Assembly: GCA_003284275.1 (NCBI GenBank)
Contig: QBVU01000003.1
Span: forward strand, 56,818 to 120,817
Length of the DNA stretch: 64,000 nt
DNA from: Pelagibacteraceae bacterium AG-313-A04
GTDB taxonomy: Bacteria > Pseudomonadota > Alphaproteobacteria > Pelagibacterales > Pelagibacteraceae
Reading direction: 5' to 3'
Part shown: positions 48,144 through 51,588 of the stretch, one piece after another
Layout of the letters: the number at the start of each line of letters is the position of its first letter
Numbering within the stretch: the first letter of the stretch is position 1
Notes under the pieces: generated by a model
Databases searched by the model: none
Told to the model about the DNA's origin: nothing
Seen by the model: only the letters and a program-made list of their open reading frames with translations
Position numbers and translations under genes: made by a program

Positions 48144-48511
48144 AGTAATTGCCAGATAATTGGACTGTCGCTATTAGATTACTAATAGAGGAAAGTCCGG
48201 GCTCCGTAAAGACACAGTGCCAGTTAATAACTGGCGAAGGTGACTTCAGGGATAGTGCCACAGAAAATAAACCGCCTTATCAAGGCAAGGGTGAAACGGC
48301 GAGGTAAGAGCTCACCGGTTTTTTGGTAACAAAAAACGCAAGGCAAACCCCACTGGGAGCAAGGTTAAATAGAGAAGACAATGTGGAAACACAAAAAACA
48401 GTCTTTAGTTAGTCTTCTGGGTTAACCGCTTGAGCTTAAGTGTGAATTTGAGCCTAGAGAAATGACATCTTCAATGACAGAACCCGGCTTATAGATTATC
48501 TGGCAGTTACT
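48144..48511 (+). ncRNA. rnpB: RNase P RNA (bacterial A type)
   Basis: Conserved GAGGAAAGTCCGGGCTCC and ACAGAACCCGGCTTA; terminal helix P1 AGTAATTGCCAGATAAT / ATTATCTGGCAGTTACT. Confidence 0.96.
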
Positions 48512-48553
48512 GTAAATGTTCTCTATTTGTCCTTTTATTGATTTACAAACTTA

Positions 48554-48581
48554 TTGACTAATTCTTAAAAACCCATACTAT
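48554..48581 (+). promoter_or_regulatory. Predicted sigma-70-type promoter of mraZ/dcw (-35 TTGACT, 16-bp spacer, -10 TACTAT)
   Basis: Motif match by eye about 65-95 bp upstream of mraZ. Confidence 0.5.
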
Positions 48582-48595
48582 CCCACATAATCCCA
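48571..48595 (-). promoter_or_regulatory. Three MraZ-box-like TGGGN repeats (10-bp period) upstream of mraZ
   Basis: Plus strand aCCCAtactatCCCAcataatCCCA; minus strand TGGGA-N5-TGGGA-N5-TGGGT. Confidence 0.75.
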
Positions 48596-48646
48596 TAATG
48601 GAGGGTATGATGAAATATTTAAAAATTAAAAGGAATTTATTTAATA

Positions 48647-49108
48647 ATGTTTTTATCAAGTTACGAGAACAAAGTAGACAAAAAAGGAAGGGTGTCGGTG
48701 CCAGCAACTTTTAGATCTCACTTAAATTCTATGGGTTATAATGGTTTTATAAGCTATCCATCTTTTAACCATTCTGCTCTTGAAGCATGTTCACAAGATA
48801 GAATTGAAAAACTTTCAAACACTATTGACTCATTGAATCCATTTGAAGAGAAAAGAGATTTTTTTGCAACTTCAGTTCTTTCAGAAAGTGAAAACCTACA
48901 ATTCGACACCGAAGGCAGAGTTTCATTTTCTGAAAAATTACTAAAACATGCAAAGATTAAAAACAATGTCTTATTTGTTGGATTAGGCAAAACATTTCAA
49001 ATTTGGGAACCAAATAATTTCGAAAAATTTAAAATTTTAGCAAGAAAAAAAGCTTTTCAAAATAGATCTAATTTAAAGTGGGAAAACAAACAAAAGGGAG
49101 AACTATAA
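48647..49108 (+). CDS. mraZ: Transcriptional regulator/division protein MraZ
   Basis: VDKKGRVSVPATFR; second half FDTEGRVSFSEKLLKHAKI; GLGKTFQIWEP. Confidence 0.95.
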   Translation: MFLSSYENKVDKKGRVSVPATFRSHLNSMGYNGFISYPSFNHSALEACSQDRIEKLSNTIDSLNPFEEKRDFFATSVLSESENLQFDTEGRVSFSEKLLKHAKIKNNVLFVGLGKTFQIWEPNNFEKFKILARKKAFQNRSNLKWENKQKGEL

Positions 49109-50559
49109 TGAGTATAAATATTGGTGGAGGAGAACTTCAAGAATTAAAACCTAGAATACTAGTTTTAGGAGTTGGCGGCGCAGGCGGTAATGCAATCAAT
49201 GCAATGATTGACTCTGGAATGAAGGGTGTCGAGTTTGTTGCAGTAAACACTGACGCGCAAGATTTAAAGATGAGTAAAGCAGACGCTAAAATTCAGATTG
49301 GTATGAATTTAACCAAAGGTTTAGGAGCAGGGGCAAAACACGATATCGGCCAAGCTGCTGCAGATGAGTCACTTAATGAAATCACTAGCTATTTACAAGG
49401 TGCAAATATGGTTTTTATAACTTCTGGAATGGGAGGTGGAACTGGCACAGGAGCATCTCATGTAATAGCTAAAGCTGCTAGAGAATTGAATATTTTAACC
49501 GTTGGAGTAACAACTTTACCCTTCTCATATGAGGGCCCCAAAAGGATGAGAAGAGCAATTCAAGGTTTAGATGAATTCAAAAAACACTTAGACACTGTAA
49601 TAGTTGTACCAAATCAAAACCTTTTTAAAATTGCTAGTGAGACAACTACATTTGAAGAGTCGTTTAATTTATCAAACAACGTTTTAAAACACGGAGTACA
49701 GAGTGTAACTGACTTAATGGTAAGACCAGGGATGATTAATTTAGACTTTGCTGATGTTGAAACGGTAATGAGCTCTATGGGCAAAGCAATGATGGGAACT
49801 GGAGAAGCGGAGGGTGAAAATAGAGCAATGGCTGCTACAGAAATGGCTCTAAACAACCCTTTGATTGATGAATATTCTCTTCAAGGAGCAAAAGGCTTAT
49901 TAATAAATATCACAGGAGGCAATGATCTTACTTTATTTGAGGTAGATCAATCAGTTAACAAGATCAGAGCAGAAGTTGACCCAGAAGCTGAATTAATTTT
50001 CGGAGCAATTAAGGATGAAAGCATGACAGGTAAAATTAGAGTTTCTATTGTTGCAACATCACTAGATGGTGAGAAAGTTCAAAATAAAACAGTTTTAAAT
50101 ATGGTATCTAGAATTCAAAATAGAAATACTGGGTATTCAGAAAATTTATTTTCTCATAACCCAAGAGTAGATACTAATACATTAGGATCTATCGATGGAG
50201 CAACAGCGTTGAAACTTGATGAAAGTTTTGAAATCAAAGATGATTTACAAAATGATATTAATGATAATACTGCGAATAAAATAAATGAAGTTCCAGCTGG
50301 CATATCAATTGAAAGCGCTTCTTACATTGAAAACAATAATCAAGAAGATAATGATCAAAATTTTGAAAAAATAGGTAGCCATGAAGAAGAGGAATATACT
50401 CCAAAACTATTTTCTGAGGAGCATACCCCGGCGACAGAAGAAACCATTAATGAACTGAATGATCAAGCTAAAGAGGAAACTGACGAATTATTTGATCAAG
50501 ATGCCGGGGAAGAGGAAGAATTTGAGATTCCTGCATTTTTAAGAAAACAAAAGTTTTAA
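49108..50559 (+). CDS. ftsZ: Cell division protein FtsZ; start trimmed to MSINIGGG
   Basis: GVGGAGGNAINAMI, GGGTGTGASHVIAK tubulin signature, C-terminal peptide EEFEIPAFLRKQKF. Confidence 0.97.
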   Translation: MSINIGGGELQELKPRILVLGVGGAGGNAINAMIDSGMKGVEFVAVNTDAQDLKMSKADAKIQIGMNLTKGLGAGAKHDIGQAAADESLNEITSYLQGANMVFITSGMGGGTGTGASHVIAKAARELNILTVGVTTLPFSYEGPKRMRRAIQGLDEFKKHLDTVIVVPNQNLFKIASETTTFEESFNLSNNVLKHGVQSVTDLMVRPGMINLDFADVETVMSSMGKAMMGTGEAEGENRAMAATEMALNNPLIDEYSLQGAKGLLINITGGNDLTLFEVDQSVNKIRAEVDPEAELIFGAIKDESMTGKIRVSIVATSLDGEKVQNKTVLNMVSRIQNRNTGYSENLFSHNPRVDTNTLGSIDGATALKLDESFEIKDDLQNDINDNTANKINEVPAGISIESASYIENNNQEDNDQNFEKIGSHEEEEYTPKLFSEEHTPATEETINELNDQAKEETDELFDQDAGEEEEFEIPAFLRKQKF

Positions 50560-50577: not shown

Positions 50578-51588
50578 ATGAACAATCATACATCATCACT
50601 GGAAACATCTCATTTTCCAGTGATGTTGAAAGAAGTTTTAAAAATAGTTTCACCATTTAATGGAGGTAAGTATATAGACTGCACATTTGGTGCAGGAGGC
50701 TATTCTAGAGAAATCTTAAAAATTCCGAACACTAACATAACGGCCATCGACAGAGATAATCATATTAAATCATTAGCTGATGAGCTTGAAAAAAAGTTTC
50801 CTAAAAGATTTAGATTTTATCAAATAAAATTCAGTCAATTAGATACTGTTTCAAGTGAAGATGTTGATGCAATTATTTTTGATTTAGGTTTATCTTCAAT
50901 ACAATTAAATAATCTTAACAGAGGTTTTTCATTTAAATCTGATAAAAGATTAAACATGGAAATGGGTCTAAACAAAGCATCAGCTTTAGATGCTATTAAC
51001 AACCTCAGTGAAATAGATTTAAAATCTGTAATTAAATTTCTAGGCGATGAAAAAGAAGCCTCAAAGATTGCAAAAAATATTGTGAAATCGAGAAATGATA
51101 AAAAAATAACTAAAACGAGTGATCTAGTTAAAATAATTGAAAAAAGTAAAAAAAAAAATTTCTCAAAAAAAATAAATCCCTGCACAAAAACATTCCAAGC
51201 TCTAAGAATTTTTGTAAACAAAGAGATAAGTGAATTAATTAATGGTGTGATAAAAGCAACAAAAAGATTAAAACCAGGAGGAAAAATCTTAGTAGTAACT
51301 TTTCATTCTATTGAAGATAAAATAGTAAAATATTTTTTTAACAATTTTTCAAAAAACAGATCAAGACCATCCAGATATTTTCCTGAAAATAAAATAGAGG
51401 AAATTACTTTATTTGAAGAGTATAGAAATAAAGTTTTAAGACCAACAAAAAGAGAGATAGACCTAAATAATAGATCAAGATCTGCAAAATTAAGGTATGC
51501 CACTAGGAGCAAATCTGAGTTTAAATATCCTCAAAAATTAATAGATAAATTCAAAAACTATTTAGATTTGGAGTCAGTTAATGTTTAA
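50578..51588 (+). CDS. rsmH: 16S rRNA (cytosine1402-N4)-methyltransferase RsmH (MraW)
   Basis: HFPVMLKEVLKIV; DCTFGAGGYSREIL; GGKILVVTFHSIEDKIVK. Confidence 0.96.
   Translation: MNNHTSSLETSHFPVMLKEVLKIVSPFNGGKYIDCTFGAGGYSREILKIPNTNITAIDRDNHIKSLADELEKKFPKRFRFYQIKFSQLDTVSSEDVDAIIFDLGLSSIQLNNLNRGFSFKSDKRLNMEMGLNKASALDAINNLSEIDLKSVIKFLGDEKEASKIAKNIVKSRNDKKITKTSDLVKIIEKSKKKNFSKKINPCTKTFQALRIFVNKEISELINGVIKATKRLKPGGKILVVTFHSIEDKIVKYFFNNFSKNRSRPSRYFPENKIEEITLFEEYRNKVLRPTKREIDLNNRSRSAKLRYATRSKSEFKYPQKLIDKFKNYLDLESVNV

Follow-up and report, generated by a model that had tools for sequence, protein, structure and literature searches.

A predicted MraZ operator and an overlapping leader reading frame at the mraZ-ftsZ-rsmH operon of SAR11 bacteria

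The window analyzed here is a stretch of 64,000 nucleotides from contig QBVU01000003.1 of Pelagibacteraceae bacterium AG-313-A04, a genome that has HIMB058 among its nearest named relatives, all of which are SAR11 Pelagibacteraceae. It contains an mraZ-ftsZ-rsmH operon preceded by a promoter, three phased MraZ boxes, and a short leader open reading frame (ORF) that runs into mraZ (Table 1). The stop codon of mraZ and the start codon of ftsZ share 1 nt within the sequence TAATG (49106-49110). On the 5' side of the promoter lie an amidase gene and the gene for RNase P RNA (48152-48507). A gap of 46 bp separates the end of the RNase P RNA gene from the mraZ -35 hexamer, and in L137 and L138, from the distant family f9, an rnpB-like sequence is likewise found 5' of mraZ-ftsZ-rsmH.

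Table 1. Features of the mraZ-ftsZ-rsmH locus, in window coordinates
Feature	Position	Strand	Basis
-35 hexamer TTGACT, mraZ-ftsZ promoter	48554-48559	+	direct reading; TTGAC in 170/172 unique family promoters
Predicted MraZ box 1, TGGGT	48571-48575	-	direct reading, shuffles, conservation
-10 hexamer TACTAT, 16-bp spacer from -35, between boxes 1 and 2	48576-48581	+	direct reading; TANNAT conserved
Predicted MraZ box 2, TGGGA	48581-48585	-	direct reading, shuffles, conservation
Predicted MraZ box 3, TGGGA	48591-48595	-	direct reading, shuffles, conservation
Shine-Dalgarno GGAGG of leader ORF	48600-48604	+	direct reading; conserved across most of genus
Leader ORF, ATG 48607 or 48610 to TAG 48712-48714, +1 register relative to mraZ; MMKYLKIKRNLFNNVFIKLREQSRQKRKGVGASNF	48607-48714	+	comparative
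mraZ, 153 aa	48647-49108	+	PF02381, E 6.6e-18
GTG codon 18 of mraZ, candidate internal restart just before leader-ORF stop	48698-48700	+	frozen in family
ftsZ, sole genomic copy; start overlaps mraZ stop (TAATG)	49108-50559	+	direct reading, profile search
rsmH (mraW)	50578-51588	+	PF01795

The first-pass annotation, made from the sequence of the window, had placed ftsZ second in the operon. This order was confirmed and is rare in the class. We surveyed 100 Alphaproteobacteria with mraZ and ftsZ on one contig and strand, where all counts are lower bounds. Among the matches listed, the two genes were 12-22 kb apart in at least 91 of the 100 genomes, and ftsZ lay within approximately 1 kb of mraZ in just four (at least). 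These four were the window genome, a second member of the same family (G275), and two genomes of family f9, in which the gene order was read directly. Adjacency of mraZ and ftsZ was found in families f1 and f2.

Upstream of mraZ, the plus strand carries CCCA at 48572-48575, 48582-48585, and 48592-48595, which reads as TGGG on the minus strand with a period of 10 bp. Three phased boxes had been proposed at this promoter, and direct reading bore this out. With one mismatch allowed, the triple-box pattern matched the window once, while 100 dinucleotide shuffles gave an expectation of zero. Throughout the 959-kb genome (87% complete), two-box units occurred at four places only, two of them being those at mraZ, and the same scan returned no second triple box. 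An MraZ regulon reaching past the mraZ operon was rejected for want of a further triple box in this 87% complete genome.

A consensus promoter scan was unconvincing by itself (3 hits versus 3.5 expected), so the promoter call rests on comparative conservation. The pairing of TTGACT with TACTAT at 16 bp, also claimed by the first-pass annotation, agrees with the family promoters, in which both hexamers are conserved. TTGAC was present in 170 of 172 unique promoters at 15-17 bp from TANNAT, with two at 19 bp, and the -10 frequencies were 1.00 (T1), 0.93 (A2), 0.91 (A5), and 0.97 (T6). One detail required correction: box 1 had been drawn over the -10, whereas the hexamer is nested between boxes 1 and 2, has a single base in common with box 2, and does not overlap box 1. 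The picture of promoter occlusion is unaffected.

The original reading had been tied to conservation of the boxes in close relatives, and this conservation proved deep. Three boxes were present at every locus of the genus that had upstream sequence and in all 12 family genera sampled, with ACCA as the first box in some (g5, g140, g142, and g146). In family f2, which belongs to the same order, mraZ is preceded by four to five boxes. The minus orientation singled out earlier is real and opposite to that of E. coli, but it is not peculiar to this genome. In a class-wide set, 108 of the 110 upstream box triplets among the matches listed were antisense to mraZ, the triplets of both orientations together coming from at least 64 genomes, which makes this orientation ordinary for Alphaproteobacteria. 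Orientation is not a defining feature of the site; the window boxes occupy the strand opposite to that in E. coli. We regard the site as a predicted MraZ operator on the mraZ-ftsZ promoter, deeply conserved in SAR11.

The operator itself is of a known kind. MraZ represses its own operon in E. coli (Eraso et al. 2014, as cited in PMC8475190 and PMC7761207), and M. genitalium MraZ is described in PMC8475190 as a repressor of a cluster that includes ftsZ. The Pmra promoter of E. coli MG1655 likewise has three TGGG boxes with a 10-bp period 5' of mraZ. These lie on the mraZ strand and, according to PMC7761207, downstream of the -10, whereas the SAR11 boxes occupy the other strand and lie on both sides of the -10. 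PmraBc of Burkholderia cenocepacia also has 10-bp-period repeats over the promoter and transcription start site; it differs in having four repeats, placed downstream of the -10, and the available part of the same source notes no overlapping leader ORF. Gene order differs as well: the second gene is rsmH in E. coli and ftsZ in the SAR11 window, and M. genitalium has mraZ-mraW-MG_223-ftsZ in place of mraZ-ftsZ-rsmH.

The most unusual feature of the locus is the leader ORF (48607-48714), which the first-pass annotation missed. GGAGG lies directly 3' of box 3, and a start codon approximately 5 nt further on begins a +1-register ORF whose overlap with mraZ is 66 nt in the window and 60-66 nt in the family. 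This start codon is mostly TTG in the genus, and most of the other genera have ATG. In a set of 168 unique leaders, ORFs that begin with ATG and continue open into mraZ were found in registers 0, 1, and 2 in 4, 129, and 4 cases, respectively, and 58 of the 60 leaders from outside the genus had such an ORF in register 1. None of 79 unique equal-length leaders had a stop in the leader-ORF frame; the other two frames were interrupted in 78 and 71 of them. As only 18-20% or so of shuffled leaders retained an open frame, these shuffles and the stops in the other two frames led us to reject chance composition as the source of the open frame.

Parsimony on a tree of 171 loci gave approximately 52 changes of leader length and five of register. 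The five consisted of three in-frame fusions and two one-base differences, the latter provisionally judged to be homopolymer errors. Substitutions in the leader part were spread over the three codon positions (121/151/162), indicating hardly any amino-acid constraint. Selection thus seems to fall on the act of translation and not on the peptide. RNA structure in the leader did not exceed chance (z 0.91). Start codon, ribosome-binding site, and open frame are all conserved across species, with selection on the frame beyond chance, and this comparative record strongly supports a leader ORF that is translated and under selection.

The overlap has left its mark on mraZ. T-ending codons that create +1 stops made up 13 of 467 (2.8%) in codons 2-21 and 1331 of 2433 (55%) after codon 23 of the same genes. 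A stepwise scan along the genes limited this avoidance to mraZ codons 2-21, and it was absent from ftsZ. Just four synonymous positions of mraZ are frozen at a codon other than the usual one, and three of these fall within the overlap (AAC8, GAC11, and GTG18). Nearly all family members have GTG18, against a GTG share of 8% among the Val codons of ftsZ. The +1 frame closes at +60 or +66 in all family members examined, with the exception of L085 and L112. Frame-0 substitutions in the overlap codons were distributed 29/30/200 by codon position, as in normal protein selection; both frames are therefore in use. Elsewhere in mraZ, Ser81 (48887-48889) is frozen outside the overlap, being AGT in 79 of 86 members of the genus. 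At Arg15 (48689-48691), the genus avoids AGA in favor of CGT, AGG, or CGG, and AGA makes up 84% of Arg codons in ftsZ.

Genomes with a different register offer a natural comparison. In three of them (L085, L112, and L131), the leader ORF is in register 0, in frame with mraZ. L085 and L112 have regained AAT8 and GAT11, with a +1 stop at codon 8; GTG18 was lost in L112 and kept in L085. L131 retains the old codons, as would be expected if its register change were recent. In family f2, the leader start is in frame with mraZ, +1 stops occur at codons 7-11, and the position of codon 18 holds GTT or GTA, with no GTG. The MraZ start in this family (L033-L050) is probably TTG after GAGG, giving a hydrophobic N-terminal extension of approximately 13 residues.

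Our preferred reading, to which we assign a probability of roughly 80%, is that an autoregulatory MraZ operator would control the SAR11 mraZ-ftsZ-rsmH operon, with the leader ORF adding a translational layer. MraZ oligomers would bind the three TGGG boxes, which recur once per helical turn on the strand antisense to mraZ, and so mask the -10 together with the predicted start point, excluding RNA polymerase. Such exclusion would lower transcription of mraZ and ftsZ alike; given that the two genes overlap at TAATG, autorepression should reduce ftsZ as well. We infer that MraZ represses both its own transcription and that of ftsZ. At the translational level, ribosomes would load near the 5' end of the mRNA on the +1-register leader ORF, which reads across the mraZ start codon and terminates 60-66 nt into the gene. 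Initiating ribosomes would be diverted from the mraZ start, keeping MraZ low relative to FtsZ, and stops before or early in mraZ would be selected against, as they would permit restart at the mraZ ATG. Diversion is the most likely role of the leader ORF, which is probably a conserved translational control element that sets the amount of MraZ. Restart at the frozen GTG18 may carry leader-ORF ribosomes on to ftsZ via TAATG.

Plain MraZ autorepression, with the open +1 frame a by-product of composition and of constraint on the MraZ protein, has very little probability in our estimation. Boxes and promoter would fully account for what the first-pass annotation observed, and the leader stop at +60 or +66 follows in part from the encoded A-S and F-R residues. 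Such a by-product does not fit a frame that stays free of stops in 79 leaders while the others do not, when shuffling leaves so few open. Nor does it fit a register retained through many changes of leader length, or a codon choice that is reversed in the overlap only and relaxed in L085 and L112. That the leader ORF encodes a functional microprotein is unlikely: the frame is kept open over 12 genera, but the ORF varies widely in length, its N-terminal part is nearly unconstrained, and residues of the overlapping part change with mraZ third positions. It is also improbable, somewhat more so than a microprotein, that MraZ activates this promoter. FtsZ is reported to rise on MraZ overexpression in M. 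gallisepticum (PMC8475190), yet the boxes here lie on the -10 and start region and not upstream of the -35.

Two further alternatives concern what happens to ribosomes in the overlap. A programmed +1 frameshift could join the leader ORF to MraZ, yielding an N-extended protein comparable to that of f2 and the three register-0 genomes. Only registers 1 and 0 are seen, save two register-2 cases that resemble homopolymer errors, and the f2 start is in frame with mraZ. However, the +1 frame stays open as far as codon 21, beyond the conserved frame-0 N-terminus, and an early shift would have no need of this. No conserved slippery sequence was seen, and the codon preceding the leader stop varies (NTT TAG). 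We consider such frameshifting improbable; it agrees less well with the conserved overlap. A prfB-like +1 fusion at the leader stop was rejected as a main model on account of the variable preceding codon. Termination followed by reinitiation at GTG18 is a possibility of more weight, though still a doubtful one. It would yield MraZ lacking residues 1-17 (along with the KGR loop), or send ribosomes onward to ftsZ. GTG18 is essentially invariant in the family despite the rarity of GTG among Val codons (8%), is located 8 or 14 nt 5' of the leader-ORF stop as counted from start to start, and is immediately preceded by an AAAGG-type sequence; it is absent in f2 and was lost in L112 along with the +1 frame. 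On the other side, the ribosome-site sequence is not frozen (the Gly14 codon varies), MraZ without its first strand may not fold, L085 retains GTG18, and its invariance could instead reflect a GCC codon in the leader frame.

Ribosome diversion as a simple brake does not account for GTG18, unless this codon serves for restart immediately ahead of the leader stop. A pure brake also does not predict N-extended MraZ from the same start in the register-0 genomes and f2. We tentatively suggest that mraZ is dual-coding over its first 22 codons and that restart at GTG18 might produce a DNA-binding-deficient MraZ, or pass ribosomes to ftsZ without making repressor, such that one mRNA would set the MraZ:FtsZ ratio translationally.

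The new part of this locus is the family-wide overlapping leader ORF. UpsM of Rhodobacter sphaeroides likewise includes a small, weakly translated ORF in an mraZ leader (PMC5089854), but that ORF is confined to R. sphaeroides, where the leader measures 268 nt and the ORF overlaps a terminator. The SAR11 leader ORF, in contrast, occurs throughout the family and extends into the mraZ coding region in a different frame. Our literature search, which covered mainly journals outside subscription and is weak evidence on this point, found no counterpart. The locus is a clear example of overlapping reading frames in bacteria, with codon-level evidence and a natural loss control. As SAR11 genomes are streamlined, a family-wide control element that restricts codon choice in a division regulator is informative. 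The prediction is that ftsZ, second in the operon, is under direct transcriptional control by MraZ together with a translational layer, and the locus thereby offers a concrete handle on division control in very abundant ocean bacteria.

A further motif lies upstream of the mraZ -35 (window, L076, and L283-L298). GTTC-N7-GTAC/GTGC occurs there in 100 of 111 unique promoters of the genus, and the window has GTTC-N7-GTCC at 48518-48532. The corresponding place in g5, g140, g142, and g146 holds GAAC-N7-GAAC, which is also present immediately upstream of lexA genes in the genus. This motif, which differs in form among genera, may provide a LexA/SOS input to mraZ-ftsZ, or it may belong to the 3' end of rnpB.
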